From a virus: DNA of 23,272 bases. How positions within the stretch are numbered: the first letter of the stretch is position 1; every line of letters starts with the position of its first letter. The notes beneath the pieces were generated by a model, which saw nothing but the letters and a program-made list of their open reading frames with translations, did no database searches and was not told the DNA's origin. Positions 2,224 through 23,272 of this stretch are shown here, piece by piece. The stretch covers positions 1-23,272 of the IMG/VR virus record IMGVR_UViG_3300021182_000034; one strand, given 5' to 3'. The position numbers and the translations under genes are program-made.

Positions 2224-2769
2224 TTATACCTCAAGCTTCCCGGCGATAACTACGCCGTCATTATATGGTGTTACGTCCTCGTTTTGGTGCAAGAACCAAT
2301 CGTAATTTTTTTGACTAATCCACGTGCCAGAAGGCAGGTAGCGGTTTAGTCTATCTTTAGTGGTTACTGTGTGCCAGTTGCCCGTATCGATCGTGATCTG
2401 GCCGTCCTTCTCAACAAGGATATTAGTATCGTGTAAGCGGATCGACCTCGTATCGCCATCTACAATCAAGTACGTGTTATTGGCAATCTTTTTGGCTTTA
2501 CTCTTGCCAGTCTTTTTGAACAGTCCAACGTATACCTGAAACTGGCCTACGCTCGTAAGCTTGGCAGTAAGTGGCCCATTCTCATTGATACAACGTTCTA
2601 GTTCAGTATTAAAGTTAGCCGGGGTAAGGGCAGGCTCTGATTCAAGACCCCAACCGCTTGAGTCTACAAAAAACGTTTCGACTAATTCATAGCCTTTGAG
2701 CTGCATTGACTCAACCGAAGCTTGGCCCGCGCTATATACACGGTCTAGGTTATCAAGTGTAATTTTCAT
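2224..2769 (-). CDS. Conserved phage protein of unknown function (VTTKDRLNRYLP type)
   Basis: A 181-residue protein. I place the start at ATG 2769 because AAGGA lies ten bases upstream; the frame is open further, but without a comparable site. The C-terminal half holds a block often seen in small phage proteins: N-T-Y, then I-R-L-H-x-T-x-I, a D-G-x-I-T strand, and G-x-W-H-T-V-T-T-K-D-R-L-N-R-Y-L-P. This block is repeatedly found as a stand-alone phage protein and has no known activity. The first 80 residues appear to be an extra, mostly helical domain. No membrane segment or enzyme motif is seen. It ends with TAA just before the downstream GTG start. Confidence 0.75.
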   Translation of the reverse strand: MKITLDNLDRVYSAGQASVESMQLKGYELVETFFVDSSGWGLESEPALTPANFNTELERCINENGPLTAKLTSVGQFQVYVGLFKKTGKSKAKKIANNTYLIVDGDTRSIRLHDTNILVEKDGQITIDTGNWHTVTTKDRLNRYLPSGTWISQKNYDWFLHQNEDVTPYNDGVVIAGKLEV

Positions 2770-2821
2770 TGTGGTGGTTATCCTTCTGATCTTTATCAAT
2801 CTATTGTTGGCTTGTAAGGCC

Positions 2822-2847
2822 ACGCCGGGGCACTAATGCCCTAGCGT
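2822..2847 (-). other. Intergenic hairpin in the leftward operon
   Basis: Inverted repeat with arms ACGC/GCGT outside and GGGGCA/TGCCCT inside, one mismatch between the two blocks and a four-base loop (CTAA). It lies between the stop at 2852 and the next start at 2769. No U tract follows in either direction, so it is more likely an RNA processing, stability or partial attenuation element than a terminator. Confidence 0.4.
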
Positions 2848-6991: not shown

Positions 6992-9277
6992 ATGGCATTA
7001 GATTCAGAGTTTGATTCATTAAGTCTATTAGAGCAAGAAGCTGCTCCTTATAATGCGATCTCGACATCTTATAATCCCGGCAAGCGTGAACGCGAAGTCC
7101 GTAGAATTATCTGGCAGCGATACTACGCCATGCAACTTGATTCGCTTCGTAAGGAAGCTGAGGGTGATTGGGTAGCGGCTGACCAGGCTTACCGTATGTG
7201 GGTACCTGAAGGTTCTCCTGACGACTGGCGAGCTAACCTCATGCTCCCTGATGCCTTCTCAGCGATTCAGGTACAGATGCAAGAAACTATCTCTCGTAAG
7301 TCACGCCCGGCTCTTGCCCGGACAACCGACTCTGACCGAGGCAGAGAGAAGTTTGCTAACGCAATTATGAAAACAAATATGGACCGGACTGGTTTCGACT
7401 ACCAGTTCTTCCAGGCTAAGCAAGCTGCCGCGATTCGTGGGACGGCTTTCCTTTGGGACTACTGGAGAACCGATAAGCGAATGATTAATGATGCTGTATC
7501 GGTAGACTCAGACGGTAAGATAACCTACAAGAAGAAGGAAGTCATTGATTTTGATGATGACTACGCCCAGTTTATTGAGAATGAGTTTGTCTTTATCGAC
7601 CCGGCTGCTCACCACATGGAGGACGCGATTGACGCTATCGTCCGCCAGGTTATGCACATCGACGAGTTTAGGAGAGTCTTTGGGAACAACCCTGATTATA
7701 TAAACATCGACATGGTGAAGGCCGGTGGTGACACCTCGTCTAAGGGTTTCTTCAAGCAGCAGAAGGACATGACAACCTATGACGTTGAAGTCCTGCGGTA
7801 CTGGAACCGAGCTAACGACCAATACTGGATGATGGCGAACAACGTAGTTGTCCGTACGGGTAATATGCCCTCGAAGCACAAAGAGATTCCTTTGGTTGCG
7901 GTTTATCAGTACCAGATCCCCGGTAGATTCTGGGGTATGGGTATTCCGAAAGTTATTTGGAACCTCACCGAAGAGCGCAGATCTATTCGTAACCTGAACC
8001 TCGACCGCCAGAAGATGCAGATCAATAAGATGTTCTTAGTTAATGACCTATTCGACATTGACGAAGAGGAAGCCGTCGTACGTCCTCACGGATTTATCCG
8101 GGTAAATGCTCAGGGTCAGCCCCTATCGAGTGTGATGCAGCCCCTAGAGTACGGCGATGTCGCCCCGTCTTACTTCCAGACCGAGGAGATCTTATTAGAT
8201 GACATCCGTAGAGCTACCGGTATTAACGATCCGGCCGAGTCCAACCCGTCTGGCGGTACCGCGACCGAGGCAGCGATCTTAAAAGAGTCTGCCGTGAAGC
8301 GAATCAACCTTATCTCCGAGCTCCAGGAGATGGACTCCCTTACCCGACTGGGTAGGCTTAAGTGGTCGAACATTCAATTCTTCTATCCCGTACCGAGACT
8401 TGAGAAATTATTTGAGGATGGTGAAGAGAAGACTAAGAAGATCTACCGTAACATCACCACTAAGGGACAAGAGTTCAGCCTACAAGTCGACGAGAGTGGT
8501 AAGAAGTCTCTGATGGTTAATGATATTGCCGGATCGACCAGTTTCAAGCTCGATAAGACCTACGCTACCTTTATGGGTGGAGACTACGATGTCACGATGG
8601 ATGCCGACGCTTTCGCTACGGCTCACGTATCTAAAGCCGTTCAGCAGTCTAAGATCACTGAGATGCTCTCGATCGTTGCTGGTCAGGTAGCTTGGATGTC
8701 ACAACTCGACCCGAATAAGAGTATGAACCGATACTTAGAAGTTATGCAGGAGAACCCTGATGACTGGATGAAGGGTAACGGTAAGAGCCCTGATGAGTGG
8801 CGACAACTCGCTGATTGGGAGAATACCATCATGGCTCAGGGCCAGCCTCTCTCCCCGACTGAGGATGCCACCACCGATCACACCACCGAGCACTTACAAT
8901 TCACCAAGACCAAAGCCTTTGATGAACTCTCGATGCCGATTAAAAAATTATTCCAGCTTCATATTATGGGTGAGGACAAGAACAACCCAGCTTCTAATGG
9001 TGGTGCCGGTCAGATGAACCCGAGCTTCGGACAAGAGCCTATCCCACCTGATGGTCCTGTACCCTCTCTAGGGACTCCACAAGGCCCAGGACAAGTTCAG
9101 CCCGGCCAAGGACCAATTCCCGGTCAGAGTGCTCCTATAGGCTCTCCTGTGGCCGCCCAGGGTGGCCCTATGCAAGCACCCAACCCAATGCAAATGCAGG
9201 GTGGCCCATCACGCGGTCCCGTTCAGAACGTCCAGGTAGCTGACATTGGTGCCTCAAATACCGGCCAAAGTAGATAG
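6992..9277 (+). CDS. Portal protein
   Basis: A 761-residue protein directly after the terminase, nine bases downstream with an AAGGAA site. It has the features of a phage portal: a helical N-terminus, a mixed wing region, and the segment around residues 420-435 with G-G-T-A-T-E-A-A-I-L. That T-A-T-E helix start is common in portals of the P22-related and similar families. The last 95 residues, from about 670, are almost only P, G, Q, N, M and S and are likely flexible. Portals form the dodecameric ring at one capsid vertex that binds terminase and later the tail. The large size and the PGQ tail are on the long side for the family. High confidence from position and motif. Confidence 0.92.
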   Translation: MALDSEFDSLSLLEQEAAPYNAISTSYNPGKREREVRRIIWQRYYAMQLDSLRKEAEGDWVAADQAYRMWVPEGSPDDWRANLMLPDAFSAIQVQMQETISRKSRPALARTTDSDRGREKFANAIMKTNMDRTGFDYQFFQAKQAAAIRGTAFLWDYWRTDKRMINDAVSVDSDGKITYKKKEVIDFDDDYAQFIENEFVFIDPAAHHMEDAIDAIVRQVMHIDEFRRVFGNNPDYINIDMVKAGGDTSSKGFFKQQKDMTTYDVEVLRYWNRANDQYWMMANNVVVRTGNMPSKHKEIPLVAVYQYQIPGRFWGMGIPKVIWNLTEERRSIRNLNLDRQKMQINKMFLVNDLFDIDEEEAVVRPHGFIRVNAQGQPLSSVMQPLEYGDVAPSYFQTEEILLDDIRRATGINDPAESNPSGGTATEAAILKESAVKRINLISELQEMDSLTRLGRLKWSNIQFFYPVPRLEKLFEDGEEKTKKIYRNITTKGQEFSLQVDESGKKSLMVNDIAGSTSFKLDKTYATFMGGDYDVTMDADAFATAHVSKAVQQSKITEMLSIVAGQVAWMSQLDPNKSMNRYLEVMQENPDDWMKGNGKSPDEWRQLADWENTIMAQGQPLSPTEDATTDHTTEHLQFTKTKAFDELSMPIKKLFQLHIMGEDKNNPASNGGAGQMNPSFGQEPIPPDGPVPSLGTPQGPGQVQPGQGPIPGQSAPIGSPVAAQGGPMQAPNPMQMQGGPSRGPVQNVQVADIGASNTGQSR

Positions 9278-11282: not shown

Positions 11283-12224
11283 ATGGCAGGTACAACCTCA
11301 CAACGACCAGCATGGCCTGATGTTCTCGATCCTAGTTTCCGTCTCATCTATGGCGAGGAACTGAAGCAGATTCCGACGAAGTACAACACTTTGTTCAACA
11401 TCCAGACTTCAGACCGTCAGCTTGAGAAGGACAGCTCGGCATCAGGACTCAGCAAGCTAGTCGTAAAAGGCGAAGGAGATGCGATCACGTACGAAGACGC
11501 GCTTCTTGGTTATTCAGTAACTTACACACACATTACCCGAGCTCTGGGTTCCCAGATTACTCTCGAAATGTGGCAGGACGACCAGTTCAACGTGATGAAG
11601 CGTCGTCCACGCGACTTGGCTTACGCTAAGATGCGAACCCTTGAGCAGTTCTGTGCTGACATCTTTAATGGTGGCTTCACTCTCGGTGGAACAGGCTTAG
11701 CCCTCTTCACCGGTGGAGACGCAGTTGCTCTGTTCTCGACAGCTCACCCTCGTAAGGATGGTGGTGCTAACCAGTCTAACTACACTACTGGTGACTTGGC
11801 CGAAGATACCTTAGAGAATGCTCTCGTTGCGATGCGTCAGACGCTCGACGACAAGGGACAGCTCCAGTTGATTCAGCCTGATGTTCTCGTAGTTCCCCCG
11901 GCCTTGGAGAAAGAAGCTCGTATTCTTTTGAACTCGCAGGGTAGGACTGGTACCGCTAACAACGATGTCAACCCGTACGAAGGGGCTTTGCGCCTCGTAG
12001 TCTGGGATTACCTTGGCTCGGCTGCTGGTGGTTCGGACACGGCTTGGTTCATCATGGACTCTAAGTTCCACAAGCTAAACTACTTCGATCGTGCAGACCA
12101 GGGCATTGAAGGTCCTGACTATGACTTCGATACTAAGACGGCCAAGTGGTCTACCTTAGTTCGTAGCTCGGTCGGTTGGAGTGACTGGCGTGGTGTTTAC
12201 GGTTCGAAGGGTGATAACTCTTAA
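11283..12224 (+). CDS. Major capsid protein, Mu gpT-like HK97 fold
   Basis: A 313-residue protein following the scaffold and decoration genes, with AGGAG ten bases upstream. The N-terminal arm (L-D-P-S-F-R, then I-P-T-K-Y-N-T-L-F) leads to a long spine-type helix region (about residues 100-130). Next come the L-F-S-T-A-H-P-R-K-D-G-G segment (about 155-170) and V-L-V-V-P-P-A-L-E-K-E-A. These are features of the Mu gpT-like group of HK97-fold capsid proteins, which are about 300 residues long. No N-terminal protease delta domain is evident. It forms the icosahedral shell. Confidence 0.9.
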   Translation: MAGTTSQRPAWPDVLDPSFRLIYGEELKQIPTKYNTLFNIQTSDRQLEKDSSASGLSKLVVKGEGDAITYEDALLGYSVTYTHITRALGSQITLEMWQDDQFNVMKRRPRDLAYAKMRTLEQFCADIFNGGFTLGGTGLALFTGGDAVALFSTAHPRKDGGANQSNYTTGDLAEDTLENALVAMRQTLDDKGQLQLIQPDVLVVPPALEKEARILLNSQGRTGTANNDVNPYEGALRLVVWDYLGSAAGGSDTAWFIMDSKFHKLNYFDRADQGIEGPDYDFDTKTAKWSTLVRSSVGWSDWRGVYGSKGDNS

Positions 12225-12257
12225 TCCGTTCCTTTAACAACTAACGTCTAGGTAAGT

Positions 12258-12300
12258 TGAGGGGCCGTTAGGCTTCCCCATAGGGTGGATTAACCCCTCA
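12258..12300 (+). other. Hairpin downstream of the major capsid gene
   Basis: TGAGGGG (12258-12264) pairs with CCCCTCA (12294-12300), with a smaller CCC-ATA-GGG stem inside the 29-base loop. No T run follows. It lies in the 101-base gap after the capsid stop and could stabilise the capsid mRNA 3' end or reduce read-through. Confidence 0.35.
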
Positions 12301-12325
12301 GCGATTCCTAGCATGGAGAAATACT

Positions 12326-13195
12326 ATGGCTTTAGGCGATAGACGCTACAAGTTCACGAAGGCAGCTTTCGGGCTCGCTAACTATAAAAATGAAAAAGAT
12401 ATTCTAAAGTTCTCATTCGGTTATACTGATTACCACAAGTTAGTAGCGGCCGGTACAGCGACATACGTTGGAAGTGCTATTGCAAGTTCATCTTCGGTAG
12501 TAACGATCGTCACAAGCGGTCTTACGCAGCCAGATGTTCCTCGCGTCTTAACGATTACTCCGACCGGTACTACGGCTAACGTAGCTACCATGAGTGTCGT
12601 TGTTACGGGTACGAACGTAGAAGGTAAAGTTATCACTGATAGTTTCGCATTTGCAGCTACGGCTTCGACCGCGACTACTGGTAAGGCAGCCTTCAAGTCC
12701 ATTACCTCGGTTACGATTCCTAAGCAAAACGGTTCGGGTGTTACCTTCTCAATCGGTACCACGAACCAGCTAGGACTTAACCATCGCTTAATGACTGGTC
12801 AGTTCGGAATGCGCGTTATCATCGATAACGGTACTTCAACGCTTGGTTCTGGAGGTGGTATTAACGCCGTCCGTTCACACTCGTTCGACGCAGCTCCAAC
12901 GGTTGTTACTAACAACAGGTACATCGAGTTAAATAACATCACTCCGGTTACGACCCCTAATGGCACATACGCTTTCCGTATCGCCTACTACCTCTCGAAC
13001 TGGAACCTGGATGGTCAGGAAGGTTACGAGCAGTACTTCACTTCTACGTCTACTTCTAGCTCGACGACCTCGACCTCTACTACTACGTCGAATACTACGT
13101 CTACTTCGACTTCAACCTCGATTAGCTCAACCTCGACCTCTAGTACATCGAGCTCAACGTCTTCGACCTCTACATCAACAACGACGCTACCATAG
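12326..13195 (+). CDS. Beta-rich virion protein with Ser/Thr-only C-terminal tail
   Basis: A 289-residue protein with GGAG before the ATG. Residues 1-40 are basic with aromatic residues, then about 41-235 are beta-strand rich (T, V, S, G, A). The last roughly 50 residues (about 239-289) are nearly all S and T, with an occasional N or I, ending T-T-T-L-P. The tail is coded by mixed serine and threonine codons, so it is not a plain microsatellite. Such mucin-like S/T tails end structural proteins of many environmental phages. A head or head-surface structural role fits the position after the capsid gene. The S/T tail is a candidate for O-linked sugars (inference, see findings). It could also be a neck or fibre protein. 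Confidence 0.7.
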   Translation: MALGDRRYKFTKAAFGLANYKNEKDILKFSFGYTDYHKLVAAGTATYVGSAIASSSSVVTIVTSGLTQPDVPRVLTITPTGTTANVATMSVVVTGTNVEGKVITDSFAFAATASTATTGKAAFKSITSVTIPKQNGSGVTFSIGTTNQLGLNHRLMTGQFGMRVIIDNGTSTLGSGGGINAVRSHSFDAAPTVVTNNRYIELNNITPVTTPNGTYAFRIAYYLSNWNLDGQEGYEQYFTSTSTSSSTTSTSTTTSNTTSTSTSTSISSTSTSSTSSSTSSTSTSTTTLP

Positions 13196-13205
13196 GAGAT
13201 AACCA

Positions 13206-13535
13206 ATGAGTCGTGTTAAATCTACAAATGAATATGCTAGCTTTCAGGCAGGGTTTGACTCTCAATGGTTGCACATTAGCGCAGGGGCAACTGGTCGTAC
13301 TACGATCAGCCCCCGGCTTAATGAGCAGGTAACTCTGGGTAAGATTATCCTAAACACCGCTGGTACAACAACTCCGATTACATTGAGTGATAGTGTCAAC
13401 GGGATGATCGCGAGTATCAACGAATCGACTAACCCTACTCATCTCCCCTATTCGATTGCGACCAAGACAAATGCTTCGCTTTACATTGATAACGGCGGTG
13501 GTGCAGACCTTACCATCGTCTTTAAGAACCATTAG
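13206..13535 (+). CDS. Small beta-structured virion protein, copy 1 of a tandem pair
   Basis: A 109-residue protein with AGGAG eight bases before the ATG. It is rich in T, S, N, G and I, and has alternating short strands and no helix, membrane or catalytic motif. It aligns over its full length with the next gene: W-[LI]-H-I-x-A-G-x-T-G-R near residues 20-30, then L-S-D-S-x-N-G-[MV]-I-A-S (about 61-71) and S-L-Y-I-D-N-x-x-G-x-D-L-T-I-x-F near the end. The family type (small beta sandwich ending D-L-T-I-V-F) is frequent among phage structural gene sets. A decoration or fibre-associated role is likely but unproven. Confidence 0.7.
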   Translation: MSRVKSTNEYASFQAGFDSQWLHISAGATGRTTISPRLNEQVTLGKIILNTAGTTTPITLSDSVNGMIASINESTNPTHLPYSIATKTNASLYIDNGGGADLTIVFKNH

Positions 13536-13538
13536 ATC

Positions 13539-13868
13539 ATGGCAACGACTAAGAGCGAAAACTTTTGGGCTTCAGCCTCAGTAGGAGCAACGACTCGTTG
13601 GATTCACATTGATGCTGGTAACACTGGTCGTATTAAGATTGCTCCAAGAGCTGGTAATCGTATCGTCTTATGCAACGTAGTGGTGAACACTTCCGGAGCA
13701 TCTGGTACTACTATTCTCAGTGATTCTAAGAACGGGGTAATTGCGTCTTTGAAGGCAAGCGTTCAGGAGAAGGACTATCACTACCAACTTCCTGTCTCTT
13801 GGAATAGTTCGCTCTACATTGACAACACTAGTGGGTCCGACCTTACAATAATGTTTATAAACTATTAA
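13539..13868 (+). CDS. Small beta-structured virion protein, copy 2 of a tandem pair
   Basis: Also 109 residues, beginning three bases after the stop of copy 1 with no clear Shine-Dalgarno sequence. Translation is therefore probably coupled to copy 1, which would keep the two products in a fixed ratio. The shared motifs (W-I-H-I-x-A-G-N-T-G-R, L-S-D-S-K-N-G-V-I-A-S, S-L-Y-I-D-N, D-L-T-I-M-F) show an old tandem duplication. The sequences have diverged widely elsewhere, especially at the N-terminus and residues 72-88. Two diverged copies of equal length suggest hetero-oligomers or two adjoining virion positions. Confidence 0.7.
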   Translation: MATTKSENFWASASVGATTRWIHIDAGNTGRIKIAPRAGNRIVLCNVVVNTSGASGTTILSDSKNGVIASLKASVQEKDYHYQLPVSWNSSLYIDNTSGSDLTIMFINY

Positions 13869-13877
13869 GGAGAGACT

Positions 13878-14009
13878 ATGACTTGTATCAAATGTAGCAA
13901 AGAGTTTACCGAGGACGAAGGGTATATTAATTGTGATATTTGCGGAGATTTCTGCAGCGAAGGGTGCTTTAACACCTATCACGACGAACATCCCCACACT
14001 AAGGAATAA
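13878..14009 (+). CDS. 43-residue zinc-binding protein
   Basis: ATG 13878 to TAA 14007-14009, with AAGGAG nine bases upstream in the short gap after the preceding stop. The 43 residues include six cysteines (C3, C6, C19, C22, C26, C30) and histidines 35, 38 and 40. They are arranged as C-x2-C, twelve residues, C-x2-C, C-x3-C, H-x2-H, so two small zinc sites are possible, similar to a short treble-clef or zinc-finger module. It is the last gene before a strong terminator. A nucleic-acid or protein-binding role is inference. Confidence 0.7.
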   Translation: MTCIKCSKEFTEDEGYINCDICGDFCSEGCFNTYHDEHPHTKE

Positions 14010-14017
14010 ACCTAGGG

Positions 14018-14039
14018 AAGACCCTCCGGGGTCTTTTTT
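14018..14039 (+). terminator. Strong intrinsic terminator closing the structural operon
   Basis: AAGACCC (14018-14024), loop TCCG, GGGTCTT (14029-14035), continued by T to 14039. This is a seven-base-pair GC-rich stem with a TTTTTT tract and a four-base loop, starting nine bases after the stop of the zinc protein. Confidence 0.85.
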
Positions 14040-14041
14040 AG

Positions 14042-14070
14042 TTGACAGCGTAAGAATTACTTATTACCCT
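14042..14070 (+). promoter_or_regulatory. Candidate promoter of the glycosyltransferase operon
   Basis: A perfect -35 TTGACA (14042-14047) begins two bases after the terminator T run. At 17 bases spacing the -10 is TACCCT (14065-14070), a poor match of three of six. Its location between terminator and operon, with about 20 bases from the -10 to the first ATG, is the main support. A weak -10 suggests low or activated expression. Confidence 0.45.
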
Positions 14071-14089
14071 ATAGAAAACGAGGAATCAC

Positions 14090-15373
14090 ATGGAACGAAC
14101 GGTCTGCATTCTCACGAACTTTAAGGGGTACCTCAAGTCATATAGTCCGATTATCGTTGTCGGGGAACAAATCAAGATGCTAAAGCGAGCCGGTATTAAC
14201 CCGGTTTTAATTGTCTCTGACGGCTGGAACCCACCGGAGGATTCTATCTTCTCCTCAGTTGAGACGAGGCGTATCGAGCCAGCTCACGTCTATAACGAGC
14301 CTTCCGAGTTCTCTGATACCGACCTAGAAGAGATCGAGAAGATCTATTCAGACTTAAATGAGATTCTTCCCGATAACGCAGTAGTTATCACCCATGACCT
14401 TATCTTCCTGCCTGACTACGTGAAGCACAACGTAGCTGCTCGCAGGATCGCTGAAGAGCGTCCTTCGATCCGTTGGATCCACTGGGTCCACTCAGCCACC
14501 TCACCCGGCTCACTTATTCGTGAGCGTTCGATGTACGGCGAGAAGTATCTTGAGTTACTCTCGACGAAGTTCCCCCACTCAATCGTGGCCTTCCCGAATG
14601 CCTACTCGATCCCGCGCGTAGCTAGGAACTTCGGTTACGAGGAAGACGAGGTAGTAGAGGTACCCCACTCATTTGACCCCACTGAGGGGATGTCAGCTCT
14701 CGTTCGTAAGCTCTACGATGATGCTCGTCTTGGAGATGCAGATATTATCATGGTTTACCCAGCTCGGCTCGACCGGGGCAAGAACTTAGAAGCCAATATC
14801 CGCTTTATTGCCGGATGCCATGAGAAGGGTCTAGATGCCAGATTTATCGTCTGTGACTTCCAGTCTACTGGCGATGATAAGGTCGTCTACCGTGAGGATC
14901 TTAAGAAACTAGCTGCCGAGCTTGGCGTAGGAGATGAGGTCTTCTTTATCTCAGAGGTCGACTCAGCTACGAATATGGAGATCCCACACTCAATGGTTAT
15001 GGAACTCTTTACCCTCTCGAATGTCTTTATGATGCCTTCGAAGTCCGAGACCTACTCTCTTGTTACGCAGGAGGCTATGTCGCGCGGTAACTTCTGTATC
15101 ATTAACCACGACTTCGCTCCCTTCCGCCAGATCTTCGGTGAGAACGCTATCTACCGCCAGTTTGGATCTAACATTGGCTTCGATGGACATGACGGTGAGA
15201 TTACAACTACATTCTCAGATATTAATGCCTATTACCGTGATATGGCGACGAATGTTAAATACTGGCTTGAGCACGACAAAGTAATCGCAGCTAAGACCTG
15301 GGTGAGAAAGGAACGCAATCCCGATGCGGTATTCCGGAACTACCTAGAGCCATTACTGTACTTGGAGGACTAG
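14090..15373 (+). CDS. GT4-type glycosyltransferase (GT-B fold)
   Basis: A 427-residue protein with GAGGAA before ATG 14090. The N-terminal Rossmann half starts with V-C-I-L-T-N-F. The C-terminal half begins at the M-V-Y-P-A-R-L-D-R-G-K-N motif (221-232), where R and K bind the nucleotide sugar phosphates. It has the E-x7-E motif at E320 and E328 (S-E-T-Y-S-L-V-T-Q-E-A-M-S-R-G). These are hallmarks of retaining GT4 transferases using activated sugars such as UDP- or GDP-linked donors. First gene of the eleven-gene operon. No membrane segment is seen, so it is cytoplasmic. Donor and acceptor cannot be told from sequence. Confidence 0.85.
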   Translation: MERTVCILTNFKGYLKSYSPIIVVGEQIKMLKRAGINPVLIVSDGWNPPEDSIFSSVETRRIEPAHVYNEPSEFSDTDLEEIEKIYSDLNEILPDNAVVITHDLIFLPDYVKHNVAARRIAEERPSIRWIHWVHSATSPGSLIRERSMYGEKYLELLSTKFPHSIVAFPNAYSIPRVARNFGYEEDEVVEVPHSFDPTEGMSALVRKLYDDARLGDADIIMVYPARLDRGKNLEANIRFIAGCHEKGLDARFIVCDFQSTGDDKVVYREDLKKLAAELGVGDEVFFISEVDSATNMEIPHSMVMELFTLSNVFMMPSKSETYSLVTQEAMSRGNFCIINHDFAPFRQIFGENAIYRQFGSNIGFDGHDGEITTTFSDINAYYRDMATNVKYWLEHDKVIAAKTWVRKERNPDAVFRNYLEPLLYLED

Positions 15374-16200
15374 TGAACACTTTTTCGATCGTAATACCCG
15401 TATACTCCGGATCTGTAAACAACGACATTCACTTCCGAGGCTATACCGTCCAGCGAGCGATCAAGTCGATCATGAATCAGCAGTACCCCCACTGGGAGCT
15501 CATCTTAGTAGATGATGGATGCGCGGACGGCTTTACCCCCGGAGTCTTGGACAAATTTGCCGAACAAGACTCTAGGATTAAGGTCATCCACAAGGATAAT
15601 GAAGCCCGGGCTATTGCTCGGAATGTCGGCATGGAGGCGGCTACAAATGATTGGATCTGTTGGCTTGATAGTGATGATGAGTATGCTAGTAATTATCTGC
15701 GTGAGCTTGATCGGGCTATTACTCTACATCCTGATTACCAGATCTTTAACTTTGGATCCCTCGTCTACCACGGAGACCTTAGATCAAGCATACGAGAAAC
15801 CTTCAAGCCAGATACTGAAGGACCTGGACACGTATGGTTTCGTGCTGGTGGTATCGGGGCTGGCTCCTTCATCTTTAAGAGGAGTCTATGGAATTCTGAT
15901 GCAAAGTACCGTATTCCGAATGAAGTTAACCCGTACCAGTTTGCAGCAGCATCTCGCATCGATCTTAAGTTCCCTGCAGGAACACCAGACATTGACGATC
16001 CTGAAGGTGCCTTTTCTGATGGAGTATACCGACACGGCCTATCACTTGGAAATCCGTGGGGAGACGACTATGCACAGTTCTACAAGCTCACCCGAGACAA
16101 TCACAGTCTGCCACTAGATATGCTTCTCTACATCCAGTACGTACGTTCTACAGAAGACTACGACTACTATGGTGAGATCTACCGCCCGGGGGACCTATGA
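15373..16200 (+). CDS. GT2-type glycosyltransferase (GT-A fold)
   Basis: A 275-residue protein from GTG 15373, with GGAGG four bases upstream, sharing one base with the preceding stop. It shows the GT2 layout: F-S-I-V-I-P-V-Y strand (4-11), V-D-D-G (46-49) for nucleotide binding, A-R-N-x-G (82-86) and the metal-binding L-D-S-D-D-E-Y (98-104). The end past residue 200 is acidic and aromatic, perhaps an acceptor site. It would transfer a single sugar with inversion. No membrane helices are seen, unlike processive GT2 synthases. Confidence 0.88.
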   Translation: MNTFSIVIPVYSGSVNNDIHFRGYTVQRAIKSIMNQQYPHWELILVDDGCADGFTPGVLDKFAEQDSRIKVIHKDNEARAIARNVGMEAATNDWICWLDSDDEYASNYLRELDRAITLHPDYQIFNFGSLVYHGDLRSSIRETFKPDTEGPGHVWFRAGGIGAGSFIFKRSLWNSDAKYRIPNEVNPYQFAAASRIDLKFPAGTPDIDDPEGAFSDGVYRHGLSLGNPWGDDYAQFYKLTRDNHSLPLDMLLYIQYVRSTEDYDYYGEIYRPGDL

Positions 16201-16967
16201 TCTACCGCATTGATATTGTCATGGTGACATGGAATCGTCCTGATCTTACGTTTAAGGCAATTGAGGCAATTCATAAGAACACCGACCACGATCACTACCG
16301 TTTAATTGTCGTAGATAACGGATCCGAGTTTGAGATGGTCCGTCAGCTTAGACAGCGACAAGATCGAGGTTTAATCGATACTTTGATCCTAAATGAGACC
16401 AACCTGGGCTTAGAGCCCGCTAGGAACCAAGGATTAGCTAGTGTTGACTCAGATCTCTTTATATGTGCTGATAATGACTGCCTACCTCAGCCTAGAGTAG
16501 ATGGTAAGGACTGGATCGAGCTGTTAGTTAAATTAATGAAAGATAATCCCGACTACGCGGCTATCTCCTGTAGAACACAGGTGATGATCGGTACCGGTAA
16601 CATTTTTGAGGAGGCAGATCAAAATGAAGACGATATTGTTGAGTTCCCGCATCCAGGAGGTTCCCTTAGAATCATGCAAACAAGCGCAGTACGAAAAGCT
16701 GGTGGCTGGCGCGATGAAGTGGGCGGAAGAGGAACTGAAGAGCGCTATATTGGTGGACGACTACACGAACTGGGTCTCAAGACAGGATTCGCAGCTAAGA
16801 TTAAAACACTCCATCTCTTTGGAGATCGTACCAAGGGAACTGACCGCTGGGGATACCCTGAGGACTTCAGACCAGAGGATACAGGACATTCTGACATCTG
16901 GCACCCAGCTTTAGCTAATGGTGATGATCCAGAGGAAATAAAAAAGTATGTTGTCGATAATAGTTAA
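16197..16967 (+). CDS. GT2-type glycosyltransferase
   Basis: A 256-residue protein overlapping the previous stop by four bases (ATGA), with GGGGGA upstream. The GT-A motifs are I-V-M-V-T-W-N-R (7-14), V-V-D-N-G-S (38-43), N-L-G-L-E-P-A-R-N-Q-G (69-79, the segment characteristic of rhamnosyl- and related GT2 proteins) and the metal site A-D-N-D (91-94). A later G-G-W-R-D-E and G-R-G-T-E-E segment probably supplies the catalytic base. The donor sugar is unknown; resemblance to rhamnosyltransferases is only at the motif level. Confidence 0.87.
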   Translation: MIYRIDIVMVTWNRPDLTFKAIEAIHKNTDHDHYRLIVVDNGSEFEMVRQLRQRQDRGLIDTLILNETNLGLEPARNQGLASVDSDLFICADNDCLPQPRVDGKDWIELLVKLMKDNPDYAAISCRTQVMIGTGNIFEEADQNEDDIVEFPHPGGSLRIMQTSAVRKAGGWRDEVGGRGTEERYIGGRLHELGLKTGFAAKIKTLHLFGDRTKGTDRWGYPEDFRPEDTGHSDIWHPALANGDDPEEIKKYVVDNS

Positions 16968-17553
16968 AAACTCAACAATCCCAGTCTGGATTCACAAGAT
17001 CCTCGATCCTGAACTGGCTCAGATAGATCATGAGATTATCTTTACCAGAAATTGGGCTGAGGGTTTAAAACAAGCTAGAGGCGAATTCGTCTGTCTTGTA
17101 GATCGTACTTTTAATATCTCCCCCGGGTATTTTGAGAATCTCTACGAGATCATTGAAGATCACCCGACCTACAGGAAACTAGCGATGATCTCACCCTCTA
17201 CGGGCCTCACAAGCTGGCAGGAACGTATTTATGGGTATAAGTATGACAACAACGCTGTCGTCGCCCAGAAGAAGCCCAGTAGTCTCTCGCCGTATCCTAT
17301 TCAAATAGGCTATATGCCTGGTTCCCTTATCAGGCGTTCAGCATTAGGCTGGCTTGATCTAGATGCTAATACTAAGAATGAATCTATCGAATACTCCTTA
17401 AGATTCTGGGATAGGGGGCTAAGGCTCATCATGGATCCAAGATCTACTTACTATTCATTTACTCCAGATCTTGATCAAACCCACTATCTGAGTGAAGATC
17501 ATCGCTTAGAGGTCGATCGGCTTAAGAGTATGTTTGAGAAGGAGTTTATATGA
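16948..17553 (+). CDS. Degenerate GT2-like protein
   Basis: A 201-residue protein with an AGAGGA site about ten bases upstream, starting 20 bases inside the preceding gene. The beginning L-S-I-I-V-K-N-S and the pattern W-A-E-G-L-K-Q-A-R-G-E-F-V-C-L-V-D match the core of GT-A enzymes. At the metal site it has V-D-R-T-F (51-55), so the usual D-x-D is lost, and there is no V-D-D/N-G motif. The later Y-M-P-G-S-L-I-R-R-S-A-L-G-W-L-D-L fits the family's acceptor-side strand. It is shorter than its neighbours. Either a metal-independent enzyme, a partner subunit of an active transferase, or inactive. Confidence 0.65.
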   Translation: MLSIIVKNSTIPVWIHKILDPELAQIDHEIIFTRNWAEGLKQARGEFVCLVDRTFNISPGYFENLYEIIEDHPTYRKLAMISPSTGLTSWQERIYGYKYDNNAVVAQKKPSSLSPYPIQIGYMPGSLIRRSALGWLDLDANTKNESIEYSLRFWDRGLRLIMDPRSTYYSFTPDLDQTHYLSEDHRLEVDRLKSMFEKEFI

Positions 17554-17759
17554 TCCCCCCAAAGTACCTAAAGCCTGATACTTGGCCTCATATGTTCTTG
17601 CCATCTAGCCCAGACTTCTTTGATGCAGTAGGTACAAGGATGCACTACATGAAATGTAAGTATTGCCCTAAAACCTATGTTTACGGCAAGGAGGAGCGTC
17701 CGATGGAGCCTTGTCCGGTAAGAACTGATAAAAGCGAATATGCGAGGATACTACGATGA
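17550..17759 (+). CDS. Small zinc-binding protein within the glycan operon
   Basis: A 69-residue protein with AAGGAG five bases before ATG 17550, overlapping both neighbours by four bases. The N-terminal 30 residues are Pro- and aromatic-rich. Then C-K-Y-C and, about 17 residues on, a C-P-V-R segment give three cysteines, with histidines nearby (M-H-Y-M-K-C), enough for one zinc site. It may scaffold the enzymes or bind a substrate. No family is recognised. Confidence 0.6.
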   Translation: MIPPKYLKPDTWPHMFLPSSPDFFDAVGTRMHYMKCKYCPKTYVYGKEERPMEPCPVRTDKSEYARILR

Positions 17760-18376
17760 ATGACAACTATTGGGATGAGCTTATGGGTACTGACGAGGGT
17801 GCAGCAAGTTACATGGATCTCTACGGAGAAGGTCCGGGTTGTGAGACTAGACTCACGATTGGTAACTTTATCAATGACGGGGAATCTGTCTTAGATGTCG
17901 GGTGTGGCCCGGGCTGGAACTACGACCACTTCAGGGAGTATGGCCCAAAGGTCGATAATTATCTTGGCTTAGACTATTCGCATCGTTTTGTGCGTGTAGC
18001 CAACAAGAGAAACCCTGGTCACTACCAGTTAGGAGACTGTCGTGCTCTAGAACAGCCAGACGGCTCGTATGACGTGGTTTTGCTCCAGGATGTACTAGAA
18101 CACACCAATGGGTACGAGAAGCCTGTTACAGAGGCTCTACGCGTGGCAAAAAATCGAGTCATCGTTACATTTTGGCGAATGCATGGAGAAACCACCACAA
18201 AGACCAACGATGATGGTAAGGACGGCTACGGGAGCGACTACAACCAACGAGAGTGGGAAGATTACCTCAATAGCCTAGAAGCAGATGATATGATTGGGTC
18301 ATGGCACCAGACCGAGAGCAGCCCAGAGGCTAATCGCTACCATCAGTTTTATATACTAGAGAAAGAAGGCTTATAA
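17756..18376 (+). CDS. SAM-dependent methyltransferase
   Basis: A 206-residue class I methyltransferase, the usual length for this group. Motif I is V-L-D-V-G-C-G-P-G (45-53), the SAM glycine loop. The acidic residue after the second strand is D73 in Y-L-G-L-D-Y-S. Motif II/III are G-D-C-R-A-L-E (93-99) and Y-D-V-V-L-L-Q-D-V-L-E-H (105-116). GAGGA before the ATG and a four-base overlap with the upstream gene place it in the operon. Given the neighbours, methylation of a sugar hydroxyl, for instance as a chain-end cap, is likely. Methylation of protein or a small molecule cannot be excluded. Confidence 0.85.
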   Translation: MNDNYWDELMGTDEGAASYMDLYGEGPGCETRLTIGNFINDGESVLDVGCGPGWNYDHFREYGPKVDNYLGLDYSHRFVRVANKRNPGHYQLGDCRALEQPDGSYDVVLLQDVLEHTNGYEKPVTEALRVAKNRVIVTFWRMHGETTTKTNDDGKDGYGSDYNQREWEDYLNSLEADDMIGSWHQTESSPEANRYHQFYILEKEGL

Positions 18377-18984
18377 TGATTTTCGACTTTGACGACTTCG
18401 GTGCTAACCACGTAATCTCAGATCAGTGTCAGGGACATGACTGTAGAGACGCGCTTGATAAGCTTCACTACGTTAATCCGTACTTTAAGGTGACACTCTT
18501 CGCAATCCCGGCTCTTATGACCCTAGAACTCCTAGAATGGTGCGAAGCTAACAATAGCTGGGTAGAACTGGCTGTTCACGGCTGGAAGCATACTTCTAAC
18601 TACGAGGCTGACAAGTGGACGAAGGAAGAGGCTCTTGAAGTGCTCAGGCACCCGATGGTTGAGCAGTACTTCGTAAAGATCTTCAAAGCTCCGGGTTGGC
18701 AGATCTCAGAGGGCTGCTATGAGGCTCTCGTCGAAGAGGGCTGGGCAGTAGCTGACCAGGGTTACAACGATAACCGCCGCCCAGGAAGCCTACCTGCCTA
18801 CATCAACCGTGACGGCACCTTCTTCGCCTACAACGGTGACTCAGGTACTCAGGAGGTAGAAACACCCGCCTGGCATGGCCACACCTGGAACTGCGTAGGT
18901 AATGGTATCTATGAGACCTACGATCAGGTAGCAGATCTGGTTAAGAACGCCGAGAGCTTCCAATTTGTCTCTGAGGTCCTCTAG
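18376..18984 (+). CDS. Polysaccharide deacetylase-like protein (NodB-type fold)
   Basis: A 202-residue protein whose ATG shares a base with the upstream stop (TAATG). It begins directly with F-D-F-D-D-F-G (3-9), like the T-F-D-D motif 1 with the catalytic and metal Asp pair. Motif 2 is A-V-H-G-W-K-H (66-72), the H-x3-H metal ligands of carbohydrate esterase family 4. K-A-P-G-W-Q (104-109) corresponds to the R-x-P motif 3. The chain is short for the family and the C-terminal His motif is not obvious; H166 or H168-type residues could substitute. It would remove acetyl groups from N-acetyl sugars, or act on another glycan bond. Cytoplasmic location (no signal peptide) argues for action during glycan synthesis, not on the finished cell wall. 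Confidence 0.7.
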   Translation: MIFDFDDFGANHVISDQCQGHDCRDALDKLHYVNPYFKVTLFAIPALMTLELLEWCEANNSWVELAVHGWKHTSNYEADKWTKEEALEVLRHPMVEQYFVKIFKAPGWQISEGCYEALVEEGWAVADQGYNDNRRPGSLPAYINRDGTFFAYNGDSGTQEVETPAWHGHTWNCVGNGIYETYDQVADLVKNAESFQFVSEVL

Positions 18985-19823
18985 TGGAAGCCGTTACGAT
19001 CATTCCGACACTTCCTAAAAACAAAGCCTACGTAGAGCTCTGTGTACGAAGTCTTCTTGATACCACGAATATGTTAATCATGGTCGTCGTGAACTCGGAG
19101 AATCCAGAAGAGTTAGAAGAGTACGATCTAGACATTGAGGACGTAAGACTCATCATCGTTAGGGTCCCAAAACAGGGTCAATGCCATGCGGTCAATACAG
19201 GCGTGAAAATGCTCAAAAAGAGCGTCGATTACATCTTTATCTCCAATGATGATATGTACTATGCCCCAGGTTGGCTACAAATCCCAGATAAGAGTGATTA
19301 CCTATGCTGGTCGCCTAATCTAGTAGAACCGACTAATAATCTAGGTTCAGCTCCCCCGTTCTTAAAACTAGATGCGGGCTTTACTCTAGATGAGTTTGAT
19401 ATTGAGAAAGTAGATGAGTTTGTAAAAAATCAGGTAACGTATGCTAACGAACCAGACGAAACGGGTTTTAACTTCCCGGTCTTTATTAAGAAAGATCTCT
19501 GGGACATGATCGGCGGGTATGATGAGTTCTACGACCCTTGGGGTTCTAACTCTGACACGGATCTTCAGACATTGATTGAACTTGCAGGTGTTCAGCCAAT
19601 GAGGAACCGTGATTCGCTGGTTTACCACTTCTCGAATAAGTCAGATACCTTTGACCGTACTCACCAGGATGCGTGGCAGAGGAACTTCGATTACTATCGG
19701 GAGAAGTTCGGCTACACCCGTGACGATGAGCCTAAGCCTAATACGTGGATGGCTACAGGCATGGTTAATCGTGAGAAGCTAATCTTCCACCCGGACTGGG
19801 AGGATGAACATGCGAGTTCTTAG
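18984..19823 (+). CDS. GT2-like glycosyltransferase
   Basis: A 279-residue protein from GTG 18984 with GAGG upstream and a one-base overlap with the previous gene. GT-A features are V-T-I-I-P-T-L (4-10), a Q-G-Q-C-H-A-V-N-T-G segment (64-73) in place of the usual A-R-N-x-G, and the metal-binding S-N-D-D-M-Y-Y (87-93). The second half has G-F-N-F-P-V-F-I-K-K-D-L-W-D-M-I-G-G-Y-D-E followed by an S-D-T-D-L segment, the acceptor and catalytic-base region. Sugar unknown. Confidence 0.82.
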   Translation: MEAVTIIPTLPKNKAYVELCVRSLLDTTNMLIMVVVNSENPEELEEYDLDIEDVRLIIVRVPKQGQCHAVNTGVKMLKKSVDYIFISNDDMYYAPGWLQIPDKSDYLCWSPNLVEPTNNLGSAPPFLKLDAGFTLDEFDIEKVDEFVKNQVTYANEPDETGFNFPVFIKKDLWDMIGGYDEFYDPWGSNSDTDLQTLIELAGVQPMRNRDSLVYHFSNKSDTFDRTHQDAWQRNFDYYREKFGYTRDDEPKPNTWMATGMVNREKLIFHPDWEDEHASS

Positions 19824-20706
19824 TATTGGGAACTTCACTACAGGCTGGGACGGTTCAATTTGTGATGAGGAGCATATTGCAAAGGCCCTAGAAGAATTTG
19901 GTGTTGAGGTTATAAGGTTTCAGCGTGAGAATCAGGTATCAGGAGGCTATAAGCATCCTAGTGCCTACCTAGACATAGACTTTGTACTACTAGCGCAATG
20001 GGATGGTTATGACGCTGACTTTATTAAAAGTCTACAAAAACCATTAGTCTACTGGGCATTCGATTATCAGGCAGACGGCCAAGAATGGCATGAGAAGCTT
20101 ATAGCAGCCTCGGATCTCTACTTGAGTAAGAGAATAGCTGATTCTAGGTATCCCAACTGGCGGTGGCTCTCACAGGACTTCGCTCCGAGCTTCCTGCATC
20201 CATTTGATGAGGTAGAGCAGGATATTGACGTTCTCTTTACTGGAACCTATATCGACTATGCGACTGAGCGTAATAGTCTACTAAAACTAGTAGATGATAA
20301 CTTTAATCTAACCATTCACTCTATTACACCAGATAGGTTTATAGAGCAGGGCTTTAAGAATGTTCATGGCCCCATTGTAGATCATGGGCTCCCTGAACTA
20401 TATGCCAGGGCTAAGATCAACCTCTCGCTAGACGCTGTAGTTGAGGCTGGGTACTGGAGTGATAGAAACTTCCAAATTATGAGATGTAGAGGGTTTGTCC
20501 TATTCAGATACGTTCCTCTATCCGAGGCCACCTTTAAAGATGGAGTAATGTACTTCTATCACGGAGCTGACTTGTTAGAGAAGATAGCCCTGTATCTAAA
20601 CCATGACGAGGAAAGAAAAACGATAGCGCAGGAAGGTTTCTTTATGTCTGAGACTGCGTGGTCGCGTGTTCAAGAGTTACTTATTATCGTAGGAAGCGTT
20701 CTGTGA
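19810..20706 (+). CDS. CgeB-like glycosyltransferase (GT-B)
   Basis: A 298-residue protein. I choose ATG 19810 over the ATG two codons earlier because GGGAGG (19798-19802) is at a usable distance. The pattern is that of the CgeB/YkvP group of GT-B transferases: V-L-S-I-G-N (3-8), K-P-L-V-Y-W-A-F-D (77-85), D-V-L-F-T-G-T-Y (140-147), L-P-E-L-Y-A-R-A-K-I-N-L-S (194-206), then N-F-Q-I-M-R-C-R-G-F-V-L (220-231). This group is named from Bacillus spore-coat proteins and includes enzymes that modify proteins or spore surfaces. Sugar and target here are unknown. Confidence 0.78.
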   Translation: MRVLSIGNFTTGWDGSICDEEHIAKALEEFGVEVIRFQRENQVSGGYKHPSAYLDIDFVLLAQWDGYDADFIKSLQKPLVYWAFDYQADGQEWHEKLIAASDLYLSKRIADSRYPNWRWLSQDFAPSFLHPFDEVEQDIDVLFTGTYIDYATERNSLLKLVDDNFNLTIHSITPDRFIEQGFKNVHGPIVDHGLPELYARAKINLSLDAVVEAGYWSDRNFQIMRCRGFVLFRYVPLSEATFKDGVMYFYHGADLLEKIALYLNHDEERKTIAQEGFFMSETAWSRVQELLIIVGSVL

Positions 20707-21671
20707 AGATTGCGATCTTTGATCCCTATCGTGGTCGATTCACTAACGATATGGTGAATTGGTGGCGACGTGAGGGTCATGAGGTTAAGACTGATCTTTA
20801 CTACGATCCAGAGCTAGTCTTATGGGCTGATCTTGTTTGGTTTGATACCTGTGACAATAATATCAAGTCTGCCACTAATCCCGGTGAGGCTATCCTCGGG
20901 GCTAAGTTCTTCAATAATACTGAGATCCCCTGGGATATGCATGAGATGGACCTAACGGGTAAGACTATCGTTTGTCGGCCGATTGATATTGAAGTCTGGC
21001 AAGGCCATCACGCGGACGCGCGCATCTGGGATCTCGTCGATCACTGTATCTTTATTGCTCCTCATATTAGAGATCTAATGATGGCCGACTCAAGACCGCA
21101 GGAATCTGATATGAAGATTCACGTTATCCCGTGTGGAGTGGAGTTATCACGCTGGACATATAAAGAGCGTACACCTGGTAAGAAGGTAGCTATCGTAGCT
21201 GAACGATGGGTATCTAAAGGTACGGATTATATTATTCAGTTAGCTATGATGTTGCCTACTTATGAGTTCCACTGGCTTGGAACAGATAATGATTACAACT
21301 GGGAAGCTGAATACCTAAGAGATAAGATTGCTAAGAAGTGTCCTAACATCATTCTTCATGAGGAATATGTTGAGGATTTAGATGAGTGGCTAGATGACAA
21401 GGACTATCTCCTCTCAGCCTCTCATAAGGAGGCTTTTGGCTATTCTATCGCTGAGGCTATGGCTAAAGGGATTAAGCCTATCGTCCATGAGTTCTACGGC
21501 TTTGAGCCCTTGTGGGGTGACTCAGGGTACACCTGGGCTACTCTTCAGGAGGCTTATGATCTTATTACTAAGTATGACTACTACTCCTCTGATTACCTGC
21601 ATTACCTAACTAAGAAGGGTTATACGACTGATCAGATGATGGAACGAATAATGGAGGCTATAAATGGATAA
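20703..21671 (+). CDS. GT4-type glycosyltransferase (GT-B fold)
   Basis: A 322-residue protein from GTG 20703, overlapping the upstream stop (GTGA); AGGAAG lies seven bases before. Motifs: I-P-C-G-V-E-L-S-R-W (142-151), the V-A-I-V-A-E-R-W-V-S-K-G-T-D donor-phosphate loop (162-175), F-H-W-L-G-T (189-194), and E-x7-E at E243 and E251 (K-E-A-F-G-Y-S-I-A-E-A-M-A-K-G). The N-terminal half has the M-K-I-A-I-F-D Rossmann start. A retaining GT4 enzyme with the same role type as the first gene of the operon, but clearly divergent in sequence. Confidence 0.85.
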   Translation: MKIAIFDPYRGRFTNDMVNWWRREGHEVKTDLYYDPELVLWADLVWFDTCDNNIKSATNPGEAILGAKFFNNTEIPWDMHEMDLTGKTIVCRPIDIEVWQGHHADARIWDLVDHCIFIAPHIRDLMMADSRPQESDMKIHVIPCGVELSRWTYKERTPGKKVAIVAERWVSKGTDYIIQLAMMLPTYEFHWLGTDNDYNWEAEYLRDKIAKKCPNIILHEEYVEDLDEWLDDKDYLLSASHKEAFGYSIAEAMAKGIKPIVHEFYGFEPLWGDSGYTWATLQEAYDLITKYDYYSSDYLHYLTKKGYTTDQMMERIMEAING

Positions 21672-22605
21672 TACATTCGTAATCCCGATAATTAGAGAAG
21701 ATCTGATCTATCGGTGTCTTGAGACCCTCTACAAGCACACACCGCCCAACTTCTATGTTTACATCGTAGACCAGACCCCGAATGGTCTAGATCAGAAGCT
21801 CTTGCGTGAGGCGTACCAGAATCTAATGGTTATTCGTACTCCTAAGACTCTCGTACACACTACGGGGAACCTAGGGTTCGCTAAGGCTACTAACCTGGCG
21901 ATCAAACTGGTAGAGACCCCCTACTTTACGATGTGTAACGACGATGTGGAGTTCTTGAATGAGAAGTGGTGGCAGGGAGTTCTTGATACTTTTGATAGAA
22001 CCGACAAGGCCACTCCTGATCGTCCTACGGTATCAGTGACACCAAGTTCGTTTAACTTCCCCGGCTGGAGCTTAGGGCGTGATACGAACCTCTCGATCTT
22101 GCCCTACAAGGAGGATTACTCAGAGGAGGAGTACGACTCACTCGTAAATGATGATCATTACTTAAATGAGCATCTAACCCTTCATCCTGATACGGTGATC
22201 GATGGTATCACTTTCTACTGCTCAGTATTCAAGACCGAGAAGTTCCTAGAGATCGGTATGCTCGATGAGAAGTACTACCCGGGTGGAGGCGAAGATTATG
22301 ACTGGTGTTGTCTAGCCTATATGAAGAACTACCGATGCGTTGGTACAACGATGAGTTGGGTCTTCCACCACTGGAGTAAATCATTCGCTACGATTCAAGA
22401 GAAGGAGGCCGTGAAAGCTCTCATTGACCCGAGCCTTGTATGGAACCAGAACCACGTTAAGTGGGGTGAGAACTTCGATACCTGGGGCGTGAAGTGTCCT
22501 CAGTGTAATCAACAAATGCGAGTTAATGACGATCCGAATGTTGCCTGGTGCAGTAACGGCCACCCGCCCTATGAGATTCCCCTGGAAACCATTACACCTC
22601 TCTAG
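21664..22605 (+). CDS. GT2-type glycosyltransferase with C-terminal zinc ribbon
   Basis: A 313-residue protein with GGAGG five bases upstream and an eight-base overlap with the previous gene. The GT-A domain (about 1-240) has F-V-I-P-I (5-9), Y-I-V-D-Q (33-37), G-N-L-G-F-A-K-A-T-N (68-77), the metal site C-N-D-D-V (91-95) and G-G-G-E-D-Y-D-W (207-214) as catalytic region, all typical of rhamnosyltransferase-like GT2. The last 40 residues add C278-P-Q-C281 and C296-S-N-G-H300, a zinc ribbon unusual in this family. It may position the enzyme on its substrate or on a partner. Last gene of the operon. Confidence 0.85.
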   Translation: MDNTFVIPIIREDLIYRCLETLYKHTPPNFYVYIVDQTPNGLDQKLLREAYQNLMVIRTPKTLVHTTGNLGFAKATNLAIKLVETPYFTMCNDDVEFLNEKWWQGVLDTFDRTDKATPDRPTVSVTPSSFNFPGWSLGRDTNLSILPYKEDYSEEEYDSLVNDDHYLNEHLTLHPDTVIDGITFYCSVFKTEKFLEIGMLDEKYYPGGGEDYDWCCLAYMKNYRCVGTTMSWVFHHWSKSFATIQEKEAVKALIDPSLVWNQNHVKWGENFDTWGVKCPQCNQQMRVNDDPNVAWCSNGHPPYEIPLETITPL

Positions 22606-22679
22606 ACCCTAGTTATCCATACCTACGGCTGTCATATTTTATCTATGGAATACGTAATTAGAATTAGGGGTGCTTTGTA
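22606..22679. other. Intergenic gap before the fibre-like gene
   Basis: 74 bases, AT-rich. It holds AGGGG (about 22666-22670) as a distant ribosome binding site, a -10-like TAGAAT (22659-22664) with no convincing -35, and a short CCCTA/TAGGG inverted repeat at its two ends. No clear terminator follows the glycosyltransferase operon, so read-through into the next gene is possible. Confidence 0.4.
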
Positions 22680-23272
22680 ATGGCACTAGCACTAGACGGC
22701 TCAAATACCGCCAATAACGTTGCTAAAGTTATTTCGTGTACCCTAACAACTACATCCACTAATGACTTAATAATAGCGGTTATAAGTACAGCAAATGCTG
22801 GTACAGGGGGTGCTACTTTTGTAGGGCTATCTGGCTGGACACAATACTTTCTTGAATCTCAGAGTGCCACTTGTGGCATTATGGTTTACTATACAACTTC
22901 AGCAAGCACTCTAAGTTCTCAGTCTATTGTTGCGACCTTAGGTGCTGTTGGTGAAGAACCATCTACAATGACCGTATTTGGTGTGAGTGGGGCAAACCTT
23001 ACTACTCCATTCGATACTAACGTATCACTACCTGCTTTCTTGGGTAAATCCGGCTCAACTACCACCAACGCCGTGACGGGTGTTTCAACCTCTAATGCTA
23101 ATGACATGATAGTTCAAGTAACTGGACTACCCAATACAAGTGGTGGGTTTACGGCTGGAACAATAGGTGGTAATACAACTACTCCAATCCAAAGCGGAAG
23201 TACTTACGCAGGGGTACAATACTCGATAGTATCATCAACTCAAAGCAGTATTACCTGTACCGCAAACTGGAC
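22680..23272 (+). CDS. Fibre- or adhesin-like beta-rich protein (partial, runs off the window)
   Basis: ATG 22680 opens a frame with no stop through the last base, giving 197 residues so far. It is rich in S, T, G, N, V and A with almost no lysine, and shows repeated short strands and no helix, membrane or enzyme motif. Segments such as N-D-L-I-I-A-V, S-G-W-T-Q and V-S-G-A-N-x-x-x-P-F-D-T-N-V are recurrent in phage tail-fibre and surface-adhesin proteins with a jelly-roll or immunoglobulin-like fold. The codon bias towards A and T looks stronger than in the upstream transferases. A receptor-binding role and a glycan-acceptor role are both inference. Confidence 0.6.
   Translation, partial: MALALDGSNTANNVAKVISCTLTTTSTNDLIIAVISTANAGTGGATFVGLSGWTQYFLESQSATCGIMVYYTTSASTLSSQSIVATLGAVGEEPSTMTVFGVSGANLTTPFDTNVSLPAFLGKSGSTTTNAVTGVSTSNANDMIVQVTGLPNTSGGFTAGTIGGNTTTPIQSGSTYAGVQYSIVSSTQSSITCTANW

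Follow-up and report, generated by a model that had tools for sequence, protein, structure and literature searches.

A glycosyltransferase operon beside a Ser/Thr-tailed head-region protein: probable self-made sugar coats on the particles of uncultured phages

Phages are not usually expected to have glycosylated particles. Why, then, would one carry an entire operon for building and modifying sugar chains, with head genes on one side and a fibre gene on the other? We have followed up this question for one linear virus record of 23,272 bases, which probably is a fragment and is here called the window. According to its list of open reading frames, the operon consists of eleven overlapping genes, g1 to g11, at 14090-22605 on the + strand. 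We propose, with a probability of roughly 70%, that it represents a dedicated cytoplasmic pathway for stepwise O-glycosylation of the phage's own particle, with the Ser/Thr tail of a protein encoded next to the major capsid protein, here termed D, as the acceptor. The relevant features of the window are as follows:

5423-6982: large terminase subunit (TerL)
6992-9277: portal
at 9913: scaffold-like gene
at 10788: cement-like gene
11283-12224, + strand: major capsid protein (MCP); PF25209 Phage_capsid_4, 5e-20; Mu gpT-like, phrog_371
12326-13195, + strand: D protein, 289 residues, i.e. a 238-residue beta-rich N-domain plus Ser/Thr tail; proposed virion O-glycan acceptor
13040-13192, + strand: mucin-like Ser/Thr tail of D, 51 aa
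13206-13535, + strand: small head-region protein without Pfam or PHROG match
13539-13868, + strand: small protein without family match; by eye, it looks like a paralogue of the 13206-13535 product
14012-14041, + strand: terminator-like hairpin with T run, 5' of the operon
14042-14047, + strand: TTGACA, a -35-like box 48 bases 5' of g1
14090-15373, + strand: g1, GT4-type glycosyltransferase; PF00534 Glycos_transf_1, 3.5e-12; E-x7-E at 320 (12-member alignment)
15373-16200, + strand: g2, GT2 glycosyltransferase; PF00535 Glycos_transf_2, 7.9e-24
16197-16967, + strand: g3, GT2 glycosyltransferase; PF00535, 2.5e-17; phrog_2456 glycosyltransferase, 5.5e-13
16948-17553, + strand: g4, degenerate GT2-like protein; PF00535, 4.5e-4, under cut-off and in the second half only; kept in relatives
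17550-17759, + strand: g5, small Cys-containing protein; zf-BED, 0.039, under cut-off; homologues in loci L019 and L036
17756-18376, + strand: g6, SAM-dependent methyltransferase; PF08241 Methyltransf_11, 8.8e-16
18376-18984, + strand: g7, CE4-like deacetylase, from AlphaFold model, PDB matches and invariant Asp/His
18984-19823, + strand: g8, GT2 glycosyltransferase; PF00535, 1.1e-6
19804-20706, + strand: g9, CgeB-like/Glyco_trans_1_2 glycosyltransferase; PF13524, 2.7e-13
20703-21671 (alternative start 20658), + strand: g10, GT4-type glycosyltransferase; PF00534, 1.7e-6; E-x7-E at 258
21664-22605, + strand: g11, GT2 glycosyltransferase with C-terminal Cys cluster; PF00535, 8.9e-12
22680-23272, + strand: fibre-like Ser/Thr-rich protein, truncated by the contig end (the reading frame runs off); possible second acceptor

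The operon thus listed codes for transferases of GT4 type (two), GT2 type (four, plus a degenerate one) and CgeB-like type (one), together with a methyltransferase, a deacetylase of CE4 fold and a small protein rich in Cys, and open reading frames and Pfam families bear out the transferases and the methyltransferase that had been named in an earlier reading of the sequence alone. The overlaps at its ten junctions from g1 to g11 amount to 1, 4, 20, 4, 4, 1, 1, 20, 49 or 4, and 8 bases, with the ninth value being 49 if g10 starts at the GTG at 20658 and 4, within the previously described range of 1-20 bases, if it starts at the GTG at 20703. Also the location of the operon, with head genes upstream and the fibre gene starting only 74 bases past its end, is confirmed by the neighbouring genes. 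Its start had been placed at 14042, however, where the TTGACA box is found and not the first codon, which is at 14090. Folding revealed the hairpin at 14012-14041 (-18.8 kcal/mol, z -3.9), and a scan of the + strand for terminator-like sites from 12200 to 23272 found none. A TTGAC[A/T/G] or TTGCCA box is present 34-48 bases 5' of g1 in the window and in nine of 22 close relatives and, because TTGAC-type boxes recur at this distance, the operon probably has its own promoter. Between the head genes and the operon (13878-14009, + strand), there is also a 43-residue reading frame with CxxC pairs (MTCIKCSKEF...CDICGDFC...), whose shortness kept it off the list of open reading frames. Elsewhere in the window, the product of 2224-2823 (- strand) matches the Pfam family Kyano_Gp96 (3.7e-9), which is named after cyanophages and provides a hint on phage kinship or host.

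Among the enzymes, g7 deserves particular attention. By sequence it shows no family match over the cut-off and only a sub-threshold match to DUF2334 (0.012). Its AlphaFold model (pLDDT 92.7), by contrast, has PDB matches that are mostly CE4 deacetylases (best 7ax7, E 1.4e-5), and D6, D7, H68, H72, H167 and H169 are invariant in 14 homologues, i.e. g7 has in common with CE4 polysaccharide deacetylases the fold as well as the conserved Asp and His-x3-His metal/catalytic motifs. The modelled fold thus confirms as a CE4-fold deacetylase what had been called a NodB-type deacetylase-like protein. For g5, the small Cys-containing protein is indeed there, but its designation as a zinc protein is uncertain, as the zf-BED match stays under the cut-off. 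That each transferase adds a different sugar found no support beyond what can be inferred. Nor can the pathway be termed complete, since none of the operon products was identified as an enzyme of the kind known to put the first sugar onto Ser/Thr; g1, which is always found directly 3' of the tail gene region, is our guess for this role. The absence of genes for nucleotide-sugar synthesis holds for the window, but a gene of the epimerase/dehydratase family PF01370 occurs in 11 of 18 related records and resides even inside the cluster in that of L019, which argues against the notion that all sugar donors come from the host. Among the isolate phages in INPHARED, there were no matches to g1, g7 or the D domain, and those found with g2 were generic GT2 cores only.

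Which protein could be the acceptor? The last 51 residues of D are almost exclusively Ser and Thr, with up to 95% of these two within 40 residues. The D model has a pLDDT of 86, and the closest match in BFVD is to a protein from an uncultured phage; searches of the D domain against PDB, Pfam and PHROG gave no useful match and no structural likeness to a known virion protein. D homologues are located directly 3' of the MCP gene in L006, L009-L013, L019 and others, and wherever a close relative has both the operon and an entire D gene, the tail is 88-100% Ser/Thr. A distant second clade has in place of D, in the same slot between the capsid gene and g1, between one and three consecutive short proteins that are unrelated to it and consist of a 'GDxYxDT...YDGxxW' module plus a Ser/Thr tail. 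Across 84 distinct tails, all ten Ser/Thr codons (six for Ser, four for Thr) are in use, difference rates at codon positions 1, 2 and 3 are 0.41, 0.37 and 0.70, and Ser-Thr swaps account for 79% of the amino-acid differences. Since all ten codons are used, this pattern fits selection at the protein level for hydroxyl-bearing residues. An origin of the tails as DNA repeats was rejected on codon use. D is the probable acceptor of the operon's sugars; it had not been named in the sequence-only reading, and its tail is not only the new point here but also the strongest evidence for virion decoration.

Relatives provide further evidence. When viral contigs were scanned three times with g1 or MCP, about 160 loci were obtained, with the records being fragments, many loci near-copies, and the loci positive for glycosyltransferases (GTs) partly collected through g1. 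In close relatives, the order TerL-portal-scaffold-cement-MCP-D-g1-g2-g3-g4-(g5)-g6-g7-g8-g9-g10-g11 is kept, with insertions, and its conservation in other contigs, for which a synteny check had been suggested, puts it far beyond chance. It had also been argued that homologues never found beside capsid genes would speak against decoration of the virion; in dozens of contigs the cluster lies 3' of the capsid genes. Of all contigs that carry this capsid family and extend far enough downstream of it, 60 had both GTs and tail, 26 had neither, none had the tail without GTs, and a single one (L077) had GTs without a long tail, the protein encoded just 5' of g1 having a short Ser/Thr end of 14 residues. 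Contigs found by MCP alone gave the same picture, i.e. GTs in six of seven tailed contigs (the remaining one breaks off immediately) and GTs over the cut-off in none of 38 without a tail. Natural controls are provided by L091 and L092, whose MCPs are 57% and 53% identical: D is 225-226 residues long and stops where the tail begins elsewhere, and the operon is absent, except for a g4 relative in L092. This relative (L092:5336-5938) is a g4-like degenerate GT2 protein (34%), whereas the other operon genes and the Ser/Thr tail were either lost or never present. On the MCP tree, there are four to five coupled changes, of which two independent pairs on well-supported branches both go in the expected direction (p 0.5), so independent evolutionary events are few (two to four) and much of the 60/26 contrast is inheritance.

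The link was also approached from the opposite side by scanning viral contigs for the DNA pattern of alternating Thr/Ser codons, with 42 records having a real Ser/Thr-rich reading frame and 47 controls having the pattern in other frames. GTs were present in 23 of the 42 versus 8 of the 47 (p 3e-4), or in 18 of 37 versus 8 of 47 (p 0.004) once records known from the g1 scan were removed, and the enrichment also holds in contigs longer than 20 kb. Outside of this family, the link is thus an enrichment and not a rule, because nearly half of the Ser/Thr records are without a detected transferase. Conversely, no Ser/Thr run was found in the records of L015, L043, L088 and L089, nor in the first 40 kb of that of L078, which all have g1; these lineages either use a different acceptor or the link is not strict. 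In L014-L017, L037-L039 and L078, a g1-type GT4 and a GT cluster are preceded by other genes (for about 580, 285 and 130 aa) without Ser/Thr tails. A scan of bacterial genomes returned two contigs of metagenome-assembled genomes (MAGs) only, L167 and L168, which are too uncertain as pointers to name a host. In L168, a 208-kb contig of a Luminiphilus MAG and possibly a prophage and host lead, the g1 relative (36%) adjoins a small protein that reaches 80% Ser/Thr over 40 residues.

Could these enzymes serve a different purpose? Phage Gtr systems remodel the host surface, and the operon might likewise alter host lipopolysaccharide or capsule and thereby block superinfection, a reading for which it may be said that weak relatives of g2 are classed by PHROGs as GtrB-like O-antigen conversion. 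Yet, with PF01943 as the family searched, the flippase of Gtr-type serotype conversion was not encountered: in line with the earlier reading, which had seen no flippase in the window, PF01943 is absent from 18 out of 18 related records, and the products of g1 to g11 have no membrane segments. As the cluster is also found next to the capsid gene in dozens of viral contigs and is coupled to a Ser/Thr tail, we consider surface remodelling unlikely and concur with the previous preference for virion decoration. Even less credit can be given to DNA hypermodification, i.e. the addition of sugars to modified bases of phage DNA. Phage glycosyltransferases with this activity are known (as far as cited in PMC12619734), but PF00303 (thymidylate-synthase-type hydroxymethylase), the sole family searched, is absent from 18 relatives. 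Nor would this reading, which we regard as very improbable, account for why the operon is coupled to the tail of a protein encoded next to the capsid gene.

Somewhat more weight, though still little, is due to the idea that the tails are just flexible linkers without sugars and that the operon modifies another target such as the tail fibre encoded just downstream. The absence of tails in some g1 lineages, the fibre-like gene directly 3' of the operon and the large Ser/Thr-rich proteins 3' of the GT cluster in several relatives would all be compatible with it. However, L091 and L092 are without both tail and operon, unrelated carriers bear tails in the same slot, and GTs are enriched in contigs with Ser/Thr runs, all of which speaks against this idea. 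A 629-residue protein encoded 3' of the GT cluster, after g10, at L009:11796-13685 contains an all-Ser/Thr stretch and is a possible second acceptor in that phage.

Glycosylation of D would have its closest working analogy in serine-rich-repeat adhesins (Fap1, GspB, PsrP), which are modified stepwise in the cell by GtfA/GtfB plus extending transferases, with transferase number differing between strains and six genes modifying Fap1 (PMC5207161, PMC6973325). Common to both is a Ser/Thr-rich acceptor encoded beside a GT cluster, and the best PDB sequence match of g2 is named GalT1 (5hea, 2.7e-14). In contrast, their acceptor is a secreted adhesin and not a head-region protein, and the phage operon adds a methyltransferase and a CE4-like deacetylase. 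Accessory Sec export genes are not among the products identified in the window, and the operon does not belong to these adhesin systems because, at the curated cut-off, the priming GtfA/GtfB pair is missing. As candidates for GtfA, g10 (TIGR02918, 15.6 bits versus a cut-off of 574.6) and g1 (no TIGR02918 match) were rejected.

Closest in outcome is virion glycosylation in the mycobacteriophages Che8, Corndog and Myrna, where phage transferases glycosylate the C-termini of capsid and tail tube proteins, according to Freeman et al. (2023) as far as cited in PMC12619734 and PMC12363180. Phage-encoded glycosyltransferases are common to both. Unlike in the window, the three transferases of Che8 are encoded at the far genome end and not beside the capsid gene, and its capsid and tail proteins have no C-terminal Ser/Thr run such as that of D. 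The Che8 transferases show weak GT2-core similarity to the operon family; in the window, matches to gp108-gp110 below E 0.01 are absent, and in two loci gp108 alone reached 4.8e-4. The open-licence literature, searched for phage proteins that are mucin-like or Ser/Thr-rich and come with transferases, contained no description of this arrangement.

How might such a pathway operate? The transferases would act in the host cytoplasm during late infection and use nucleotide-sugars that come from the host and, in relatives, may be partly remodelled by phage epimerases or dehydratases. Before or during assembly, short glycans could be built up stepwise on the Ser/Thr tail of D, with g7 trimming the chains by de-N-acetylation and g6 methylating them, although the order of these steps, as well as the presence of D in the virion and of sugar on its tail, is what we infer. 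Decorated D would then join the head as a mucin-like fringe that may serve as a shield or in adhesion, and the product of the adjacent fibre gene may likewise serve as an acceptor.

Overall, because tail and sugar genes nearly always co-occur across relatives, phages that have both probably coat their own particles with mucin-like sugars. A bolder version, which we regard as possible but hold with clearly less confidence, is that of a true viral mucin in widespread uncultured phages, i.e. a dense brush of O-glycans, methylated and in part de-N-acetylated (and hence charged), that is carried by the Ser/Thr tails of proteins on the head surface and specified by a mobile cassette that gains or loses the acceptor tail together with the enzymes. 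In the literature searched, mycobacteriophages are the documented exception to unglycosylated particles. If our interpretation is true, glycan-coated particles would be common in uncultured phages and could be predicted from sequence by a Ser/Thr tail beside the capsid gene together with a transferase cluster. With natural pairs of relatives with and without both tail and operon on hand, these phages would then also offer a compact cytoplasmic O-glycosylation pathway, substrate included, that could be reconstructed in E. coli.
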